IMG/VR virus record: IMGVR_UViG_3300023184_000588
Span: 1-21,390 of that record
Length of the DNA: 21,390 bases
Source of the DNA: a virus
Direction: 5' to 3' (one strand)
Shown piece after piece: positions 4,058-21,072 of this stretch. Position 1 is the stretch's first letter. Each line of letters starts with the position of its first letter. Below the pieces are notes generated by a model. That model searched no databases, was not told the origin of the DNA, and was given only the letters and a program-made list of their open reading frames with translations. The position numbers were made by a program, and so were the translations under genes.

Positions 4058-4948
4058 ATGGCCAACACACTCGGAACAACCAATGCAAACGTAATCGCGC
4101 AGAGGGCGTTAGAAATCCTCGTCGCCGATTATTCGTTTTTGCGAAGCGGAGTTTCTAATTTTTCCAGCGATGCTGCGAAATACGGAGCTTCAATCTATAC
4201 GTCCCGCCTCTCTGCTCTCACGGCTGCTGATTACAGCCAGAGCACTGGTTACGCGGGATCAGCGATCACCCAGACGGATGTCGCGATCACGCTAAATAAG
4301 TTCAAACACGTCACCTACTCGGTGGACGATCAAGAACGTACCAGCTCAAACATCAATTTGATCGAGCGCTTCGCAGGTGCGGCCGCTCATGCGATTGGGT
4401 TGCAGATGGTGGGCGATTTGCTCACCCTCGTAACTTCCTCGACGTTCACCAACGCGATCACCGTTGCTTCCACCTCATTTAACTATCGCTCGGTAGTGTC
4501 TGCAGGTGCAGTGCTCAACGGGCTGAACTCGCCCGTCAACGGCCGCTACTGCGTGTTGGCGCCTTTGTTCTACGGTGCACTGATGAATGACACAACGGTC
4601 GTAGCGAATCCTCAGATCACTGGGGACATCGTTCGTGGCGGCGGAATCGGCAAAGTTGCCGGATTCGACGTGAACCAGTATAGCGCAATTCCTAGCAACG
4701 GAATCACCTTAGGTGGTTTTTTCGGGCAACAGGAATCACTGCTCATTGCGGCCCGCGTCCCTGAAGTGCCAACTACTGTGATGATTCCTGGCGACATCTC
4801 GGTGGTTACCGAACCCCGCACAGGACTGAGTTTACAGGTGCGAGAGGCATATAACATGTCCCTCGGAACCCTCAGCAGAACCTACGCGTTAATCTACGGC
4901 GTCAAAGCCGGAGAGCCCAACAGTCTCGTACGTATCAACGGAGCCTAA
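4058..4948 (+). CDS. Major capsid protein, P22 coat-like
   Basis: This is the shell protein of the capsid, 296 residues, expected to have the HK97 fold. The stretch DYSQSTGYAGSAITQTDVAI, then LNKFKHVTYSVDDQERTSSN, then LIERFAGAAAHAIG recalls the gp5-like coat proteins seen in P22-type and many siphovirus genomes: a spine helix, beta arm and an IYTSRL segment. The later GDIVRGGGIGKVAGFDVNQY matches the 'G..G...GFDV..S' turn typical of HK97-fold capsid proteins. It is shorter than P22 coat (about 430 residues), so an inserted domain is probably absent. Position after protease/scaffold and before a FII-like protein supports the call. It begins MANTLG with no large N-terminal extension, which fits a separate scaffold instead of a fused delta domain. 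Confidence 0.87.
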   Translation: MANTLGTTNANVIAQRALEILVADYSFLRSGVSNFSSDAAKYGASIYTSRLSALTAADYSQSTGYAGSAITQTDVAITLNKFKHVTYSVDDQERTSSNINLIERFAGAAAHAIGLQMVGDLLTLVTSSTFTNAITVASTSFNYRSVVSAGAVLNGLNSPVNGRYCVLAPLFYGALMNDTTVVANPQITGDIVRGGGIGKVAGFDVNQYSAIPSNGITLGGFFGQQESLLIAARVPEVPTTVMIPGDISVVTEPRTGLSLQVREAYNMSLGTLSRTYALIYGVKAGEPNSLVRINGA

Positions 4949-5014: not shown

Positions 5015-5314
5015 ATGTCTGAATTCACCGAAGCACTCAAAGAATCGCTCGCCGTTTTGCATGAGCAAACAGGCACCACCGTCACCATCGGATCTACCGC
5101 CGTCACTGGCATCCTTTCCACCATCACCCGCAAAGAGAACGTCGACCTAGGCGGATTCGATCTCGATCTCAATACCACCTTCACCATCGACGTCTCCTTA
5201 CTAGCCACCGCCCCCACCATCGGATCTGTCCTGGTGGCGAACTCTGTCTCTTATCGCATCGTCACCGTCGACACCTCCATCGGCTCCTACCTCCTCGGAC
5301 TTAGAGAAAAGTAA
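5015..5314 (+). CDS. Head completion / head-tail joining protein, FII-like
   Basis: This 99-residue protein lies right after the major capsid gene, where lambda gpFII and its relatives sit; these small beta proteins form the head-tail interface. The sequence shows an N-terminal helix (SEFTEALKESLAVLHEQ), then TGTTVTIGSTAVTGIL, a GGFDLDL segment and a final SYRIVTVDTSIG strand pair. This is the usual pattern of a helix followed by a beta barrel with a 'YRI' strand in this family. The start follows a TTAAAGAAATCCTC leader, with no Shine-Dalgarno sequence. It is the last gene of the head module before the sugar cassette. Confidence 0.65.
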   Translation: MSEFTEALKESLAVLHEQTGTTVTIGSTAVTGILSTITRKENVDLGGFDLDLNTTFTIDVSLLATAPTIGSVLVANSVSYRIVTVDTSIGSYLLGLREK

Positions 5315-5323
5315 GCCCTAGTT

Positions 5324-7015
5324 ATGGCACCCCGAAATCCTCCTAAAATATCGGTTTACTTTATCGCAGGCCACGAGGCCCAGTTCATCGGCAGGGCGTT
5401 GGCCGCCTTTAAACCATTCTGCCAAGAGATAATCGTGGCACTCGCCCAGGGTAACCGGCCGGACGACGGCACCCGCGAGATCGCCGAGAAAGCAGGGGCC
5501 ACCGTCATCACCTACCACAACTCTGGCACGGCCGCAGATTGGCCCCACGTCGATAATTTTGCCAACGCACGTAACTGCGCATTGAATGCGTGCACTGGGG
5601 ACTACGCCGTCTGGTTCGATTGCGACGATTTACCCGCCGAAGACCTCGATAAATGCTTCACAAGGGCCGTGGAAGCGTTTGAAAAAGATTCAGCCCTCGG
5701 CATCTACGCAGGCGTCTACGCCGTTTTAAACGCCAAACTTTCCCCAGTAAGGGAAAGAATGGTAAAGCGCTTACCGGGTGGCGGCTGGTCCGGCACCTGG
5801 CATTACGCCGTCCATGAAGCACTCCTGCCCGTTGCTGGCTTTAAATCCATAGGGGAGCAGAACGTCTGGTGCGAACACCACTGCGGTGGGTACAAGCCGG
5901 GCAGCGCAGATCGTAATCTCCGCATCCTTGGCGATGAACTCAGTCAGGCGGGCAAATACGCCTACTACTATCAACAAGAACTATTCTTAGGGAACAAGCG
6001 TGACGAGAGCGGCGCCTGGTCACGCATCGCCGCCTATTGGCCCAAGCAGGAACCCACCCTGCAGTACGAAGCCATGTGCAACTACGCGGCCGCCCACCCC
6101 GATCGTGATACCCGCATGCGGCTTTACGGGAAGGCTCATCAGCTCCAGCCCGGCCGCCGTGAGGCGCTCTACTACATCGCTCGCGAGGAAGCATCTATCG
6201 GCAGGTGGGGCGCCGTTTACTACATGCTGAAGGCGGCCATGGTCCAGCCGGATCCGGGTGTCTCAATTTGGAACTGCCAGCGCTCCATTTATGACTTTGA
6301 GTGCATCGACCTCTACCTAGCGGCCGCCCGCATGACGGGCGATACGGCCGAAGTGGAAAAGATCACAACCTCCTGGCGTAAACAGTGCCCTGTTAAAATT
6401 TCTATTCTTCACGCCACCCGCAATCGCGCCCAGGCAGCCATTAACGCCCGCGTCCTGTGGATGAAAAAAGCATCTCACCCGCAGAACATAGAATGGATCT
6501 TCTCTTGCGATAACGACGATCCTACGGCCGCCGTCCTTAAACCGTGGAATCCTGTCATGGGCGAGGGGAGCTGCGTAGCCGCATGGAATAGGGCCGCCGA
6601 TAAGGCCCAAGGCGAGATCCTTATCCAAGCTAGCGACGATTGGGACCCACCCCTCTACTGGGACACCATCATTACCGAACGCCTGGGCGATCTGAGCCAG
6701 CCGAAGGTACTAGCGATCTCCGACGGGCACCGTACCGACGACCTCCTTTGCATGGCCATTTTAACAAAAGCTCGGCTTATCCAGCAGAGCTCACTTTTTG
6801 CGAATGAATACGACGCCTGCTCAGGCATCTTTAGCGATAACGAGTATAGCCACCGGGCAAAAAAAGACGGCGTCATAGTCGATGCTAAGGACGTCGTCTT
6901 CACCCACAATAACCCGCTTTTTACGGGTGCAGTGCAGGACGAGGAATTTAAAAAGCATAACGCCAAAGAAAACTACATCCTCGGCGAAAAGATATTTAAG
7001 GAGCGTAACCCGTGA
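5324..7015 (+). CDS. Double GT2 glycosyltransferase with TPR-like middle
   Basis: This 563-residue protein has two GT-A fold glycosyltransferase family 2 domains. The first (about 8-200) has ISVYFIAGHEAQFIGRAL, the FANARNCALNACTGDYAVWF segment and an acidic metal/sugar-nucleotide motif DCDD at 99-102, close to the 'FAxARN..GDW.L.LDADE' pattern of WaaE-like enzymes. Residues about 205-345 are helical, Tyr/Ala-rich and TPR-like. The second domain (about 357-560) begins KISILHATRNR and has ASDDWDPP with Asp438/439. The substrate cannot be read from sequence. It opens a three-gene cassette and overlaps the next gene by GTGA. It probably acts in the cytoplasm because no signal peptide is seen. One protein with two GT domains could add two sugars in succession or make a disaccharide; this is inference. 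Confidence 0.82.
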   Translation: MAPRNPPKISVYFIAGHEAQFIGRALAAFKPFCQEIIVALAQGNRPDDGTREIAEKAGATVITYHNSGTAADWPHVDNFANARNCALNACTGDYAVWFDCDDLPAEDLDKCFTRAVEAFEKDSALGIYAGVYAVLNAKLSPVRERMVKRLPGGGWSGTWHYAVHEALLPVAGFKSIGEQNVWCEHHCGGYKPGSADRNLRILGDELSQAGKYAYYYQQELFLGNKRDESGAWSRIAAYWPKQEPTLQYEAMCNYAAAHPDRDTRMRLYGKAHQLQPGRREALYYIAREEASIGRWGAVYYMLKAAMVQPDPGVSIWNCQRSIYDFECIDLYLAAARMTGDTAEVEKITTSWRKQCPVKISILHATRNRAQAAINARVLWMKKASHPQNIEWIFSCDNDDPTAAVLKPWNPVMGEGSCVAAWNRAADKAQGEILIQASDDWDPPLYWDTIITERLGDLSQPKVLAISDGHRTDDLLCMAILTKARLIQQSSLFANEYDACSGIFSDNEYSHRAKKDGVIVDAKDVVFTHNNPLFTGAVQDEEFKKHNAKENYILGEKIFKERNP

Positions 7016-8862
7016 AAGTATTTATTTATAACAACCTAATCGACAATCCCGTTATGCAAGAGGGCAACAAGACGCTGGCTCAGCGCGATAGGCTGGAGCC
7101 GCATCTAGCCTATTTAAACGACATCTACTATTTTCTAAAAAAGTTTGAAACGACTAATCCTGAGGAAGCCGATTGCTTCTTCGTTCCACTTTTTCTGGCT
7201 GGGATGCAATTCTCTAACCTTGATCCAGAAAAAATTATTAACGAACACTGCACGCACCTGACCCGAGGAAACCATATACTTGTCAGCACTGGAGATGTCG
7301 GTCAACGCAAAGAGTCGATTTACGAAATGACTCACGAAGCTAACCCAATTCGAGCTTACAACAAAAAGTGGCGGTGGATGGATGACCGATTTATTCTAAT
7401 CGCTCTCGAATCCTTGCCTACCCTACACAAACAAGACATCGCAATTTTACCTTATCAGACGAAAGAAACAGAAGCCTATGATTGCGAGCGAGACATCTTT
7501 GCCTCGTTTATTGGGACGATGACCCAACTGCACCTACCCGAAGATCATATCCGAGGAGGGAGGCTGGTTGAGTTGCAGGCCAAAGCAAAAGACATCCTTA
7601 TTGGTTGGCCACAAGAAGTAGCACACAGGATGGGGGAGGAGATTCACCCGCATAAACTAATGGCACGATCTGTATTTACTCTCTGCCCTGCGGGATATGG
7701 GCGGTGGTCGTTTCGGTTTGTTGAGGCGCTGCTCAACGGCTCAATCCCTATCCTTTTGTCGGATGACTATGTTCTGCCCTTTGCCGATAAGATTCAATGG
7801 GAAGATTACTGCATTACAGTCGAAGAAAAAGACCTTCTTAATGTGGAGGAGATTCTAAAATCCATACCGCAAGACCAAATTTTGCAGATGCAAGAGAAAA
7901 TCAAAAACTCAAAGCATCTATTTACAAAGGATTTTATTCTGTCCTGCATTGCAGAAAAACTGCCCCAAAAGTCATGCGCCGATATTGCTATCGGAAAGAT
8001 GAGAAGCCCAGAGGCGATGCACATTGTTTGCGTGGATGTAACCAACAAGTGCGATCTAGCCTGCTCTAACTGCACCCGGCTTTTGGCTAATCAAGAAACA
8101 AAATGGGAGATGAGCGTCGAGAACTTTCGACTAGCTCTTCAAAGCCTGAAGAACTACGGCGGCATAATCGCTATGATTGGAGGCAATCCATGCGTTCACA
8201 CAAAGTTTGCGGAGTTGTGCCAAGTCTTTCGGGAGGAGATACCCAACCAATTTCAGAGGGGTATATGGACAAACAACTATTTCAAACACCGAGAGGTGAT
8301 TGAGCAAACCTTTGGAGCGTTGAATCTTAACCCTCACAATATGGAGAGAGCCAACGAGAAGCTAAAAGACCTTCACGATGTAATGGTGAAACAAAAAGGA
8401 TTTCACGGCGGGTATTATGTGGGCAACAGTCATCACGCTCCCCTTCTAACAGCGGTTAAAGACCTATATCCAGAGCAGGAGATGTGGGACAGAATTAGCC
8501 GGTGTGATATAAACAAAGACTGGTCAGCATCCATTATTCAAAACAGGGGACAACTTAGGGCTTACTTCTGTGAAGTTGCGGCGTCCTTTGACTTGGCAAG
8601 AGGGGAAGATCACGGTCACCCAGTTGTCCTTGACTGGTGGAAAAAGCCAATCTCGGCTTTTTCCGATCAAGTGAAACATTTCTGCACCGGGTGTGGAGTT
8701 CCCGCAAGACTCCGAGGGAATATGGATAACGAGGAGATCGACACCTACACCAAGTCAAACGCCGACATTGCACAAAAGTCTTTGGCAAAGGGACGCAAGA
8801 TACAGCTGCTTGATGTAGAAAATAAACTAAATCATAAAGTGACGGAGTATTTTGCAGGGTGA
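7012..8862 (+). CDS. Exostosin-like (GT47) glycosyltransferase fused to a radical SAM domain
   Basis: This is a 616-residue fusion. Residues 1-310 match exostosin/GT47: EEADCFFVPLFLAG near 51-64, ARSVFTLCPAGYGRWSFRFVEAL (218-240, quoted in part: FTLCPAGYGRWS), then GSIPILLSDDYVLPF and IQWEDYCITV. Residues about 335-570 look like a radical SAM enzyme. The [4Fe-4S] motif CxxxCxxC is C347, C351, C354 (NKCDLACSNC), followed by MIGGNP at 388-393 in the place of the SAM-binding GGEP. Cysteines at 498, 520, 558 and 561 may bind an auxiliary cluster. GTG start 7012 overlaps the previous stop and has AAGGAG 8 bases upstream. The gene is visibly AT-richer, with AGA/AGG arginine codons, than flanking structural genes. 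The radical SAM part could modify a sugar or a peptide acceptor; the substrate is unknown. Confidence 0.85.
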   Translation: MKVFIYNNLIDNPVMQEGNKTLAQRDRLEPHLAYLNDIYYFLKKFETTNPEEADCFFVPLFLAGMQFSNLDPEKIINEHCTHLTRGNHILVSTGDVGQRKESIYEMTHEANPIRAYNKKWRWMDDRFILIALESLPTLHKQDIAILPYQTKETEAYDCERDIFASFIGTMTQLHLPEDHIRGGRLVELQAKAKDILIGWPQEVAHRMGEEIHPHKLMARSVFTLCPAGYGRWSFRFVEALLNGSIPILLSDDYVLPFADKIQWEDYCITVEEKDLLNVEEILKSIPQDQILQMQEKIKNSKHLFTKDFILSCIAEKLPQKSCADIAIGKMRSPEAMHIVCVDVTNKCDLACSNCTRLLANQETKWEMSVENFRLALQSLKNYGGIIAMIGGNPCVHTKFAELCQVFREEIPNQFQRGIWTNNYFKHREVIEQTFGALNLNPHNMERANEKLKDLHDVMVKQKGFHGGYYVGNSHHAPLLTAVKDLYPEQEMWDRISRCDINKDWSASIIQNRGQLRAYFCEVAASFDLARGEDHGHPVVLDWWKKPISAFSDQVKHFCTGCGVPARLRGNMDNEEIDTYTKSNADIAQKSLAKGRKIQLLDVENKLNHKVTEYFAG

Positions 8863-9518
8863 AAAAGTGTATCCGATACCAGCAACGCTTAGGCGATGTT
8901 CTGCGCTGCTTGCCTGCCTGCAAATATCTCGCCGACCAAGGCCACGAGGTAGTCTTAGATTGCTTTGATCAATATCACGGTGTCTTTGATTTGGTTACCT
9001 ACGTGCGCCCAGGCACTGCTGATGACATAATAGATTTAGAAATCTGGCCCAATCGTTACAACGCATTTCGGCAGTCTGGCTTATCGTGGATGGACTTTGT
9101 CTATCAGCACCCAGCCATTGCCGGAGCGGATCGCAAGATCGTACTGGATCGCCTGCCAGATGGGCCGCCACCCGGACTGCCTGATCATTACAACCTGCTG
9201 GCGCCGATGGGTATCAGCCAATCGTGGAACTACCCGACGCTAGATATTCTACAGAAAGCTACCGAGCTGATGGGCGACTTTATCATTATGTGCGAAAAGA
9301 AATACTACTTTCACAACCGACACTGGACGGCGGCATCGGTAGTCGAAATGGCGCAAGCTATCAAGCACGCCAGCACCTTCATGGCGATAAACTCAGCCCC
9401 AGCCATACTTGCCTCAGCTCTACGCCAAGATCGCCCAACCTTCTTCCTTCCGCAAAAAGAACAGTGGGCACAAGACAACATCGCGCCGTGGCCTGGGCGC
9501 GTTGACGTGGAGCTATAA
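8859..9518 (+). CDS. Short GT9/heptosyltransferase-like glycosyltransferase
   Basis: This 219-residue protein starts at GTG 8859, overlapping the preceding stop by GTGA. The N terminus (RLGDVLRCLPACKYLADQGHEV) matches the 'lGDvl...P....L...' opening of GT9 heptosyltransferases, and MAINSAPAILASALRQDRPTFF near the C terminus resembles the sugar-nucleotide loop 'sGp.HlA.al..P.v.l'. It is about 120 residues shorter than typical GT9 enzymes, so the two Rossmann halves are compact or part is missing. It closes the sugar cassette; a tail gene begins four bases after its stop. The C-terminal codons contain the TTGACG that lies 20 bases before the next start. Activity and acceptor are unknown. Confidence 0.65.
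   Translation: MKKCIRYQQRLGDVLRCLPACKYLADQGHEVVLDCFDQYHGVFDLVTYVRPGTADDIIDLEIWPNRYNAFRQSGLSWMDFVYQHPAIAGADRKIVLDRLPDGPPPGLPDHYNLLAPMGISQSWNYPTLDILQKATELMGDFIIMCEKKYYFHNRHWTAASVVEMAQAIKHASTFMAINSAPAILASALRQDRPTFFLPQKEQWAQDNIAPWPGRVDVEL
9502..9507 (+). promoter_or_regulatory. TTGACG variant of the start-linked motif, tail terminator gene
   Basis: TTGACG inside the last codons of the GT9-like gene lies exactly 20 bases before ATG 9522. This is the only member of the set that deviates from TTGACA, by one base. Confidence 0.4.
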
Positions 9519-9521
9519 CCT

Positions 9522-9968
9522 ATGGCCGCCGTCACCATGCTTGATCGTTTAATCGAAGCCGCTTTCAAAGAGCTGGTCTCACCCGTAGTTACCGCTCCGA
9601 CCTATCACCTTTCCCACGATGCCACAGAGAACGTCCCGCCCAGCATTGTGATAAAGGCGTCCATGGGCTCAGAGGAGCCCGTCAGAGGCAGCGGCGTATT
9701 TAGCATCCCAGTAGAAATTATCTTTGACGAAAGCTACGACGACGCCACCCCCACCTCCCACAGCGCACAGTGTAGCAAGATCCTGCAGTGCTTCTACGAT
9801 GCGACCAATCTCTCCGCTAGGCTTAACGCCACCACCGCCATCGGCTCCGCCCGCACCTACAGCGCCAAGCTAGAATCCAGCGAAGCCAGCGCCGATAATG
9901 AGGAACGATCCTACACCCAAAACTATAAGCTTACCGTCATTGCGTTCCCCGGTTCCATCGCGAGTTGA
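9522..9968 (+). CDS. Tail terminator / tail completion-like protein
   Basis: The protein has 148 residues and is the first gene of the tail module. An N-terminal helix (MLDRLIEAAFKELV) is followed by PPSIVIKASMGSEEPVRGSG and a GVFSIPVEIIF strand, then a D-rich loop and a helix (CSKILQCFYDA), then a final strand near YKLTVIAF. This layout, with a charged loop and an alpha/beta core, and the place immediately before the tail tube gene fit siphovirus tail terminator (neck) proteins that cap the tube. Sequence similarity is too low to be certain. Its stop TGA is part of the TTGACA preceding the tail tube gene. Confidence 0.5.
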   Translation: MAAVTMLDRLIEAAFKELVSPVVTAPTYHLSHDATENVPPSIVIKASMGSEEPVRGSGVFSIPVEIIFDESYDDATPTSHSAQCSKILQCFYDATNLSARLNATTAIGSARTYSAKLESSEASADNEERSYTQNYKLTVIAFPGSIAS

Positions 9969-11131: not shown

Positions 11132-11334
11132 CGCCAGGGGGGAGCGCCGCGTGCGTCTTCGTCCTGGCTAAAGAAACTGGATGGTCCATCGAAAAAATCT
11201 TATGGGAAATACCCCTCAGCCAAGTTCACCAAGCGGAACACGTTTTTCTATATATGAACGGCGCGAAGTTAAGGCGGGCAAATCATATCCATGGCTCCGA
11301 TATTCGTGACATGGAAAGGCTGTTAGGATTATGA
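10748..11334 (+). CDS. Tail assembly chaperone G-T fusion made by -1 frameshift
   Basis: Shifting back one base after AAC at 11123-11125 gives codons CGC CTA GCG CCA and a 69-residue extension that ends at TGA 11332-11334, inside the ATGA that starts the next gene. The extension reads RLAPGGSAACVFVLAKETGW onward, with SIEKILWEIPLSQVHQAEHV and a C-terminal RDMERLLGL. Tryptophan-containing short helices of this kind ('W...kIL.eIPl.q') are typical of the T domain that recruits the tape measure protein. The fused product would be about 195 residues. Without the shift, 11132-11330 would be an unusually long empty gap for this densely packed genome. Frameshift efficiency cannot be read from sequence. 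Confidence 0.65.
11119..11125 (+). promoter_or_regulatory. Programmed -1 ribosomal frameshift site C CCA AAC
   Basis: The heptamer has the X XXY YYZ form in register with the zero frame, with codons CCC CCA AAC, three codons before the TAG at 11129. Slippage places the ribosome in a frame open for 69 further codons. G-rich sequence (GGGGGG at 11137-11142) follows at a distance that could support a stimulatory structure, but I do not see a clear simple stem. Confidence 0.65.
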
Positions 11335-12194
11335 GCGCAAGTCTTACCGTAGATGCCACTAAACTAGAAAGAGCGCTCAAAGCTTTTATCGGAAATACCA
11401 AACTGGAAGCAGGCAAGGAGATGAAAATCCAAGCCCGCAGCCTTTGCCTTAGTCTTGCAAAAGCAACCCAACCATTTGGCTTAGATTCAGCTACAAAAAA
11501 GCAGGGGGAGAAGGCGGTGTCGCGCGATATCGGGCGAGTCTATAAATCAGTCGCAGGCGCCAGCGTAGGAATATCAAAACTATCGCAAGGAGGAGGCAAG
11601 AGCCCCACTCAAAACGCCGAACAGGCGGGCCGCGCTTTTGCCGCCTTGGTGAATTTTAAATTTAAAGGCAAGGGCAAAAAAGCGCGTACTATGGCCGCAC
11701 GTAGCCAAGCGCAGGAACTGCTTAAGCGGATTAACACCGCCCCTTTTATCCACACCCAGCTAGGCCCGTTTGATGCTGGGAAAGCCCACACCGCCGCCAG
11801 ATTTGGCAAGCGCAAAAGCGTTCCAAAAAATCAGTTTGTTAGTCTTGTGGTAGATAAATCCAGCGATCTAAAAAAATACTACAGAGAAAAGATGAGTCAT
11901 GTCGGTATTATGAAAAGCGGCTGGGCCGCTTGCGCCAGAAGTTTAGGTGGCGTAAAAGGATTCCCCGCGTGGGTAACTCGCCATAGCGGAGGAGGAACGG
12001 TGGACGACCAGAGCTCTAAGGCCGTCGGTACCTTCTCAAAGCCTTATATTAAAGTCACAAACAAGATCCTTGGCATTGGTAACGTTATTAGTAATAGCAC
12101 GATCCAGCGTTCTATTGACATTCAGCTCGTAAAGATGATGACGCGCCTGAGAAAAATTGCTGGAGCCGAGCGCAAAAAAGCAGGCTTTGCCTAA
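11331..12194 (+). CDS. Basic tail-module protein of unknown function
   Basis: This 287-residue, Lys/Arg-rich protein lies between the tail chaperones and the tape measure. The N-terminal half has helical segments (TKLERALKAFIGNTKLEAGK), a low-complexity basic stretch (NFKFKGKGKKARTMAARSQA), and then NQFVSLVVDKSSDLKKYYRE. The segment MKSGWAACARSLGGVKGFPAWV followed by H recalls a recurring phage motif ('a..W...a..lG....P.W...H') found near tail and neck genes, but I cannot name the family. An HK97-gp10-like neck protein, or a tail component with acquired basic repeats, are alternatives. The start is ATG in an ATGA overlap with the frameshift product stop, with GGAAAGG 10-16 bases upstream. Confidence 0.6.
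   Translation: MSASLTVDATKLERALKAFIGNTKLEAGKEMKIQARSLCLSLAKATQPFGLDSATKKQGEKAVSRDIGRVYKSVAGASVGISKLSQGGGKSPTQNAEQAGRAFAALVNFKFKGKGKKARTMAARSQAQELLKRINTAPFIHTQLGPFDAGKAHTAARFGKRKSVPKNQFVSLVVDKSSDLKKYYREKMSHVGIMKSGWAACARSLGGVKGFPAWVTRHSGGGTVDDQSSKAVGTFSKPYIKVTNKILGIGNVISNSTIQRSIDIQLVKMMTRLRKIAGAERKKAGFA
12115..12120 (+). promoter_or_regulatory. TTGACA 20 bases before an internal in-frame ATG
   Basis: The hexamer lies near the 3' end of the basic tail-module gene, exactly 20 bases before ATG 12135, which is in frame and would give only a 19-residue peptide. It either is a chance member of the set or relates to expression of the tape measure gene at 12197. Confidence 0.2.
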
Positions 12195-14269: not shown

Positions 14270-14671
14270 ATGGCAATCGAACCAAGACTAAAACCCCTTG
14301 TCGGCGCGTCTCGCCTAGCGATAGGATTTTTTAATAGCATTATCAATCGGATTGAGTGCACCAAACCCCTCGCCGGTGACTTCATTACCATCAAAGAAGA
14401 AGATAACGGATATAGAATTAATTTTACTGGATTCAATATAGGGGTAGGGGAGGGAACCGCCGCCGCGACCGGCGCTACCGGCCCTAGCGGAGTTACTGGA
14501 CCAAAAGGAGACAAAGGAGACCAAGGAGACCCAGGATCTAATGGCGCTACTGGTCCTACTGGAGCTACTGGGCCAGGGGCAACAACATATGGCCACATCA
14601 TACTTAACGTCTGCTCAAACGGAAATCCTGCAACCATTAGCCTGATGCGGGGCCCAAACACTGTAACTTGA
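14270..14671 (+). CDS. Collagen-like phage fibre protein
   Basis: This protein has 133 residues. An N-terminal globular part (1-66) probably docks to the tail; ALA-rich residues lead into twelve Gly-X-Y triplets (68-103), with GPK, GDK, GDQ and GDP units typical of phage collagen-like stalks; a short C-terminal cap ([19 protein letters not shown]) follows. Such proteins form trimeric stalks in tail fibres. The start lacks a strong ribosome binding site (AACGGA lies 9-14 bases upstream). It lies between a distal tail protein and other fibre-like genes. Confidence 0.75.
14471..14578 (+). repeat. Twelve Gly-X-Y (collagen) codon repeats
   Basis: Tandem nine-base units encode [33 protein letters not shown] and G-P-G. 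Unit sequences such as GGAGAC and GGCGCTAC recur, so replication slippage could change stalk length. Confidence 0.75.
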
Positions 14672-19976: not shown

Positions 19977-20317
19977 CCGAATCGCCTGCCATTCATAGCC
20001 CTATGAGCGAGGAACACGAAAAGCACTTAGCCGGGATCCTTGTCGATCTAACGAGGGACGTGTCCAAAAAATATCGCAAGGGGCAGAAGGAGCACGGTGG
20101 CGCCCTGTGGCGTAGGCCCGTGTGGAAGGATGCATGGGATGAAATTTTGGACCTCTGTGTTTATCAACATACCCTACGCCTCCAGCTTTCCGTAATCGCC
20201 GAGCTCGCCCTGCAGGGCGCTGCAGATTCGTCGGTCGCTGCCTCACAAAGCAGAGAAAATTGTCGCCAGATCCTAGCCGTCCTTCAAGGCTTTCCATCGG
20301 CCCAAGACAAAAAGTGA
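19973..20317 (+). CDS. EHGG-motif helical phage protein (possible MazG-like)
   Basis: The protein has 114 residues; the ATG overlaps the endolysin stop as ATGA and has GAGG five bases upstream. The core SKKYRKGQKEHGGALWRRPV then AWDEILDLCVYQHTL shows the 'KYrkGq.EHGG.L......a..EilDl.vY' pattern seen in many phage proteins thought to be distant all-helical NTP pyrophosphohydrolases of the MazG/dUTPase superfamily. The acidic residues in EILDL would be the metal ligands. The substrate is unknown and the family link is from memory of motifs. Confidence 0.5.
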   Translation: MTESPAIHSPMSEEHEKHLAGILVDLTRDVSKKYRKGQKEHGGALWRRPVWKDAWDEILDLCVYQHTLRLQLSVIAELALQGAADSSVAASQSRENCRQILAVLQGFPSAQDKK

Positions 20318-21072
20318 AAGTAATCAGAAAGTGGAAGCGCTGGCTGGCAGTGTCCTGCTCCCACGGCCACCTCGCTAACCCGGCTGCCTGTGCCGCCGCT
20401 TTAGAGATGAAGCGCAGGTGGATCCGCCCAAACAGCGGAGATCAAGTCCTGCATTTAGGTGATTTTCTTGACCTATCTTCCCTAATGGGCTCGGCCAGAA
20501 AAGATCCTGATAATCCCGAGCGATCAATCTCCATACGTGAGGACTTCGACGCTGGGCTAAATTTCGTCCGCCAGCTTGCCCCAAACTATCTTTATGAGGG
20601 GAACCATGAACACCGTCTAACCGCGCTACAAACCTCGCCTAGCGCCATTGTGGCTCACTGCTGCATGTCCGCTAAGTCGGAGATTTACAACCTGTGCAAA
20701 GATCTAAAGGCGGAGTGGGTGCCGTACGATATTGAAAAGGGGTGGCGGGATCTGGGTGGCACTGCGTTCGGCCACGGCTTTATGTTTTCAGAATCCAGCG
20801 CAGTGCGTGATCACGTAGAGATGACCCGCAAACCAGTAGTCATCGGCCATCTACATAGGATCGATCGATCTTCCGGCCGCAGTTTTGGTGCCCCGGTGGG
20901 ATGGACGATCGGATGCTTGGCGGATATCGGATCTATGCACTACGCCCGGCGCCAGAGATCCGTGACTAGGTGGCAACACGGCGTCGCCTGGGGCGAGTAC
21001 GTAGACGGAGGGCAGGGGTGCACCGTAAACGTGTTGTCGCCTGTGGAGGGCCAATGGCGATACCCGATTTAA
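20314..21072 (+). CDS. Calcineurin-like metallophosphoesterase with atypical first motif
   Basis: The protein has 252 residues from GTG 20314 in a GTGA overlap; upstream in-frame codons lie inside the previous gene. Metallophosphoesterase motifs appear in order: SCSHGH (14-19), GDFLD (49-53), GNHEHR (96-101), GHGF (153-156) and GHLHR (178-182). The first motif should be D-x-H; here Asp is replaced by Cys15 while His17 is kept. The other ligands are intact, so the enzyme may still bind metals, or Cys may serve as ligand. Substrate unknown; phage homologues act on phosphodiesters, phosphoproteins or nucleic-acid ends. It sits in a late region, not beside DNA-replication genes. Confidence 0.8.
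   Translation: MKVIRKWKRWLAVSCSHGHLANPAACAAALEMKRRWIRPNSGDQVLHLGDFLDLSSLMGSARKDPDNPERSISIREDFDAGLNFVRQLAPNYLYEGNHEHRLTALQTSPSAIVAHCCMSAKSEIYNLCKDLKAEWVPYDIEKGWRDLGGTAFGHGFMFSESSAVRDHVEMTRKPVVIGHLHRIDRSSGRSFGAPVGWTIGCLADIGSMHYARRQRSVTRWQHGVAWGEYVDGGQGCTVNVLSPVEGQWRYPI

Follow-up and report, generated by a model that had tools for sequence, protein, structure and literature searches.

A capsid-linked glycosyltransferase and an exchangeable cassette of sugar-modifying genes in metagenomic phages: a predicted late protein-glycosylation module

Why should enzymes that appear to handle sugars be encoded in the midst of the genes for a phage particle? The question is posed by a 21,390-base IMG/VR virus record, analysed over its whole length and called the window below, in which all genes lie on the + strand in the order terminase end, portal, capsid protein, head closure, three predicted enzymes (g08-g10), tail genes and tape measure protein. 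A sequence-only reading had seen in the three enzymes a cassette inserted between the head and tail modules, coupled to them in translation, and serving either the late glycosylation of a virion protein or a late remodelling of the host surface.

Genes and predicted enzymes of the block

The presence of three coupled genes between the head-closure and tail genes is borne out: g08 (5324..7015), g09 (7012..8862) and g10 (8859..9518) are open reading frames on the + strand that overlap by GTGA at 7012-7015 and again at 8859-8862. Their dN/dS values (0.10 for g08 between the window and contig L006; 0.10 and 0.03 for the two halves of g09 between the window and contig L001; 0.06-0.10 for g10) point to purifying selection and hence to real genes. 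The head-side flank was also read correctly. The fixed upstream neighbour g06 (4058..4948) matches phrog_283, major head protein (E 1.8e-26), and g07 (5015..5314) is a head-closure (Hc1-like) protein: 8 of 10 of its relatives match phrog_82 head closure Hc1 (best E 8e-4), with the window protein taken alone giving a weak match (E 0.11). At the other border, g11 (9522..9968) occupies the position of a tail terminator, and it is from this position that the identity given to it in the sequence-only reading derives, no PHROG match supporting it. Downstream of g11 follow g12-g14 and then the tape measure protein.

The 563-aa product of g08 is a GT2-TPR-GT2 glycosyltransferase by profile and fold matches. 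PF00535 (GT2) is matched above the Pfam cut-off at residues 39-135 (E 1.4e-9), an acidic DxD-type motif has D99, D101 and D102 invariant in 13 sequences, and the AlphaFold2 model (pLDDT 89) comprises a GT-A domain (residues 1-190), TPR helices (194-353) and a second GT-A domain (356-563). The family profile matches GmaR (E 9e-16), SunS (3e-11) and ThuS (8e-9), and TPR chains match it at positions 216-340. In structure comparisons the first part of g08 aligns with SunS (Z 23.3, residues 1-289) and ThuS (Z 22.1, residues 1-351), which like GmaR have a GT2 domain followed by a helical or TPR domain; g08 differs from all three in being viral and in carrying, after the TPR helices, the second GT-A domain, which resembles the WrtF fucosyltransferase (Z 17.9) and RmlT (Z 17.3). 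Flagellin is glycosylated by GmaR, whose TPR domain has been proposed as the part that recognises it (PMC9638930); in FlmG the flagellin acceptors are bound by the TPR domain alone (PMC7591256). The architecture of g08 thus points to a protein acceptor, and we propose that g08 acts as the initiator of a glycan on proteins. Across g08-g10 the highest 19-residue hydropathy mean is 1.22, that is, there is no strongly hydrophobic segment and accordingly no flippase-like part.

The 616-aa g09 protein is a fusion, as had been read from its sequence. Its N-terminal GT47 (exostosin) domain (7012..7965) is clear, with PF03016 matched at residues 31-285 (E 3.4e-30, 105.8 bits against a cut-off of 33.4). 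The C-terminal domain (7966..8862) proves to be of the radical SAM type, though divergent. As its PF04055 score (20.4 bits, E 6e-4) lies under the Pfam cut-off of 29.5 we term it radical-SAM-like; NCBIfam matches are weak, the CX3CX2C motif is intact (KCDLACSNC, invariant in five sequences), and FCX2C cysteines follow later in the domain. A PF04055 search of the window record gave no match and hmmscan of the g09 protein the weak one just cited, and we let motif and homologues decide. The radical SAM profile of g09 recovered 66 viral loci, among them the lineage of contig L271, which surfaced solely in this way; a scan with the GT47 half recovered only L001. GTDB genomes, scanned for a bacterial source of the radical SAM domain or for the phage host, yielded no relative.

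At 219 aa the g10 protein is short compared with the WaaC, WaaF and 3tov chains (303-348 aa). It matches no Pfam family at E <= 1 and, among NCBIfam models, has only weak RfaQ-type matches (E 0.046-0.14). Its AlphaFold2 model (pLDDT 87) is of the GT-B type and has the GT9 (heptosyltransferase-like) fold over the full model, with matches to WaaF (Z 14.8), WaaC (Z 14.0), 3tov (Z 13.2) and TibC (Foldseek E 2.7e-8). Since this is a match in fold without sequence-level membership of GT9, we file g10, for which 15 sequences were aligned, as GT9-like in fold.

A core gene beside the capsid gene and a swap site behind it

Among 80 capsid relatives of the window, g08 follows g07 in every one whose DNA reaches past g07. 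Across lineages, head proteins were compared by single-protein scans. A second, distant group has capsid proteins that are 22-27% identical to that of the window and likewise assigned to PHROG 283. Directly 3' of its capsid gene lies a longer g08 homologue (33-37% identity), fused in most loci to a methyltransferase domain, and this GT2-GT2-methyltransferase gene comes directly after the capsid gene in 26/26 contigs with at least 744 bases beyond that gene. The GT47-radical SAM fusion marks a third lineage of eight contigs (L271, L272, L275, L279, L280, L281, L284 and L287); in the four that were compared, the order is GT2-GT2, methyltransferase, GT47-radical SAM, GT9-like protein, small protein and g11 relative, tail genes following the block, with identities to the window of 38-39% for the GT2-GT2 protein, 69-73% for the full-length fusion and 35-37% for the GT9-like protein. 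In L271 the gene before the block encodes a major head protein of another PHROG, phrog_1005, so that the same block recurs at the same place beside a different capsid.

Since g08 is present wherever a relative's DNA extends to the site, as well as in two more deep lineages, and is always tied to the capsid gene, it belongs to the core of these phages as a fixed partner of that gene. The insertion of g08-g10 in one event is therefore rejected, and the supposed three-gene cassette shrinks to g09 and part of g10, which alone are exchangeable. A clade with a related capsid protein, that of phage P8625, has no g08-like gene in its 34 records, many of which extend only a few kilobases past the capsid gene; glycosylation would thus be dispensable for that capsid fold. 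An invariant role of the block in head assembly accordingly fits g08 within its own clades and nothing more: as the P8625 clade lacks g08 and the other genes of the block vary freely, the block is not essential for head assembly. The host of the window phage may be guessed at via P8625, a cultured Verrucomicrobia phage (capsid 29%, portal 24%). In the annotated phage collection no record has g08 or the GT47-radical SAM fusion at full length, and the system is therefore known only from metagenomes.

The interval between g08 and g11 holds one of six cassette types in each of 63 distinct complete loci, the window included, all on metagenomic contigs of which many are fragments. Cassette A (35 loci) encodes a 254-aa protein, a thiamine-enzyme Pyr domain, a radical SAM/SPASM protein and an E1-alpha protein; B (10 loci) a 161-aa methyltransferase and g10; C (9 loci) a 211-aa methyltransferase and g10; D (3 loci) a DUF5672 protein, Methyltransf_24 and g10; E (4 loci) the 254-aa protein, separate transketolase N and transketolase Pyr proteins, a methyltransferase and a radical SAM enzyme; and F, found in the window and L001, the GT47-radical SAM fusion and g10. 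Four types thus share g10, and methyltransferases occur in B, C, D and E as well as in the distant lineage. In 61 of 62 scored relatives, spread over all six types, the stop codon of g08 contains the start of the first cassette gene, the two genes overlapping by 4 nt, which makes the GTGA at 7012..7015, where homology also breaks off, a conserved plug-in junction. Cassette G+C is usually below that of the flanks.

The exchange can be read directly from pairs of contigs. Window and L006 encode capsid proteins with 100% identity in tblastn and 99.7% in the alignment used for dN/dS, and their DNA is 89% identical up to base 7015 and 85% identical from 9520, with no homology between; homology of the window DNA to L007, L012, L026, L089 and L095 stops at 7015 too. 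With L001 the relation is reversed: identity is 77-98% in the cassette but 64-72% in the flanks, third positions agree at up to 96% in the former against 41-48% in the latter, and the borders of high identity lie near 6990 and, inside g10, near 9070. When the six types are placed on a quick one-gene DNA tree of the capsid from 59 phages, a gene that recombination may affect too, they require 22 changes against a mean of 24.5 for shuffled labels. The g08-g11 interval is hence a swap site whose cassettes change almost as often as shuffled labels, whereas the neighbours g05 and g12-g14 are of one family or nearly so among the relatives. The only other variable slot among those tested is that of g15 (window 11331-12194), a milder swap site with five families at 50% identity clustering and 14 changes against 19.8 for shuffled labels.

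Several smaller features of the cassettes were seen. Between window and L001, identity falls to 62-72% in the second half of the GT47 domain (window 7468-7967), against about 90% in its first half and in the radical SAM part, which may reflect either an internal mosaic or diversification on the donor side. A shared RLGD N-terminus made the 254-aa protein of cassettes A and E a candidate second homologue of g10; profile comparison gave a probability of 0.4%, and we leave the protein unclassified. The thiamine-diphosphate enzymes of the same cassettes are split into pairs (E1-alpha or transketolase N with Pyr) of 151-213 aa each, in phages of 33 kb (for example L023:4690-6907 and L078:13700-14793). 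Together with the GT47-radical SAM fusion, these small split pairs suggest enzymes for unusual sugars. In one contig an extra GT2 gene lies inside cassette A (L104:3675-4538), which suggests that cassettes also grow by gain of single genes.

Proposed pathway, its acceptor and the alternatives

The constant protein-glycosyltransferase architecture, the linkage to distantly related capsids and the swappable tailoring enzymes lead us to late protein glycosylation with a polymorphic finish. We propose, with a probability of about 0.6, that the late capsid-tail operon contains a phage-encoded protein-glycosylation module made of constant g08 and an exchangeable cassette; the late, translation-coupled glycosylation pathway suspected in the sequence-only reading is in this respect upheld by the conserved 4-nt overlap and by the architecture of g08. 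We infer the activities, their order and the protein nature of the acceptor as follows. The first GT2 domain of g08 would place the first sugar on a late phage protein held by the adjoining TPR helices, and the second GT-A domain would add the next. In the window the GT47-radical SAM protein and the GT9-fold enzyme would then extend, modify and cap the glycan; in other phages the final steps would fall to a methyltransferase, or to split thiamine-diphosphate enzymes and another radical SAM enzyme. Whole cassettes would be exchanged through homologous recombination in the conserved flanks (g08 and g10/g11) and would stay coupled to g08 by the 4-nt stop/start overlap, so that phages which are otherwise near-identical would differ in their glycan much as serotypes do.

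As an enzyme adjacent to the capsid gene is combined with exchanged sugar-modifying genes, varying sugars are probably added to a late protein, which would most likely be one of the particle itself; the acceptor would be a virion protein, with the capsid or the tail tube as the best candidates. Across 33 loci no gene family downstream of g14 tracks cassette type significantly, and co-variation thus names no acceptor. Counted against a virion acceptor are the position of the block beside two different capsid families, the participation of soluble GT2, GT9 and GT47 enzymes in the building of host surface glycans, and the fact that cassette swapping is equally expected for a product acting on the host surface. 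A further conceivable candidate acceptor is the small product of window 14270-14671, which has G-X-Y repeats of the collagen type and matches tail fibres.

The foremost alternative, which we consider unlikely though it deserves a serious hearing, is that the target of these late enzymes is the host surface (the LPS core, the capsule or an S-layer glycan), so that superinfection is blocked or progeny are not lost on debris, with the variety of cassettes mirroring that of host glycans. The resemblance of GT9-fold enzymes to LPS heptosyltransferases and the free swapping of cassettes, which fits a tracking of host glycan types, agree with this, and so do unrelated podophage-like contigs in which radical SAM, epimerase and GT2 genes closely precede the terminase. 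However, g08 matches protein or peptide glycosyltransferases and not lipid-linked ones, no membrane flippase or polymerase part is present in g08-g10, the linkage to capsid genes is strict and ancient across three lineages, and expression is coupled to that of virion genes.

Distinctly less probable as the acceptor is flagellin, pilin or another host protein whose late glycosylation would block the adsorption of other phages. The closest characterised relatives of g08 do include the flagellin glycosyltransferase GmaR (PMC9638930), but late expression would leave little time to act, and synteny with capsid genes that persists down to about 25% capsid identity would go unexplained. Very improbable, in our judgement, is the modification of a small phage-encoded peptide, either glycocin-like or a radical-SAM RiPP product: although SunS and ThuS are peptide S-glycosyltransferases and radical SAM enzymes of the g09 type often mature peptides (NCBIfam matches), most cassettes consist of sugar-tailoring enzymes with no peptidase or transporter, and between g07 and g11 there is no precursor-like gene among ORFs of at least 60 aa, the interval being filled by g08-g10. 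Least probable of all is the hypermodification of phage DNA with sugars, the role of many phage glycosyltransferases according to PMC12619734, since the closest structures belong to enzymes of peptides or glycans and no base-hydroxylating or thymidylate-synthase-like partner is seen within the 21-kb window.

Returning to the glycosylation of phage particles, a more specific form of it is that the site is a serotype locus, in which the starter in the capsid operon is kept and the finishing cassettes are traded, so that near-identical virions wear different glycans; this we advance tentatively, at rather less than even odds. The radical SAM and thiamine-enzyme cassettes could make sugars unknown so far, and the driver could be frequency-dependent selection through the recognition of particle surfaces by receptors, host defences or grazers. 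If true, the locus would be a phage-particle analogue of capsule or O-antigen switching in bacteria, confined to one site in a structural operon, and it would turn the question of why phages glycosylate their virions into a natural experiment with near-identical phages that differ mainly in their cassette.

Known systems and further occurrences of related genes

The phage seroconversion clusters (gtrA/gtrB/gtr) are a familiar case of phage genes that vary a surface glycan, through a membrane flippase and a bactoprenol glycosyltransferase with transmembrane helices. The window block differs in the absence of strongly hydrophobic segments from g08-g10 and in its place within the late virion operon, to which it is translationally coupled. 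Virion glycosylation itself is already known; a swappable cassette in a capsid operon has, to our knowledge, not been described so far.

Closest in outcome are the mycobacteriophages Che8 and Rita, whose virion glycosylation (Freeman et al. 2023, as cited in PMC11256854, PMC12619734 and PMC13313380) involves, according to the citing passages, phage-encoded glycosyltransferases and glycans thought or shown to sit on the proteins that form the capsid and the tail tube in a tailed phage. A methyltransferase is named there beside the glycosyltransferase in a related case, just as cassettes of the window's relatives carry methyltransferases. The glycosyltransferase genes of the F1 phage Maravista are placed in these passages near the 3' end of the genome, whereas the window block follows the capsid gene, and the same passages mention no cassette polymorphism and no radical SAM, GT47 or thiamine-enzyme part. 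In chlorovirus PBCV-1, conserved multidomain glycosyltransferases (A111/114R, A064R) underlie a constant glycan core and variable decorations form the signature of a virus (PMC7826918). The GT-GT-methyltransferase order of A064R is that of the fused enzyme of our distant lineage, a likeness for which we claim no homology; PBCV-1 differs in being a eukaryotic virus with N-linked glycans.

Genes related to those of the block also turned up elsewhere. Free-standing radical SAM relatives occur with GT2 genes, and in some cases a nucleotide-sugar epimerase, immediately upstream of the large-terminase gene of phages with an SU10-type portal (L002-L005, L226-L268). In a 735-kb megaphage (LR756501.1, about 295-333 kb), relatives of the GT47 domain, of the cassette A/E radical SAM enzyme (39%) and of the methyltransferase domain lie within 40 kb. 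One phage of the distant lineage has a C5 cytosine DNA methylase gene (L136:8169-9017) between the glycosyltransferase-methyltransferase fusion and the next glycosyltransferase. Finally, an open reading frame at window 20260-21072 with GDFLD and GNHEHR motifs resembles a metallophosphoesterase, an enzyme that P8625 also encodes.
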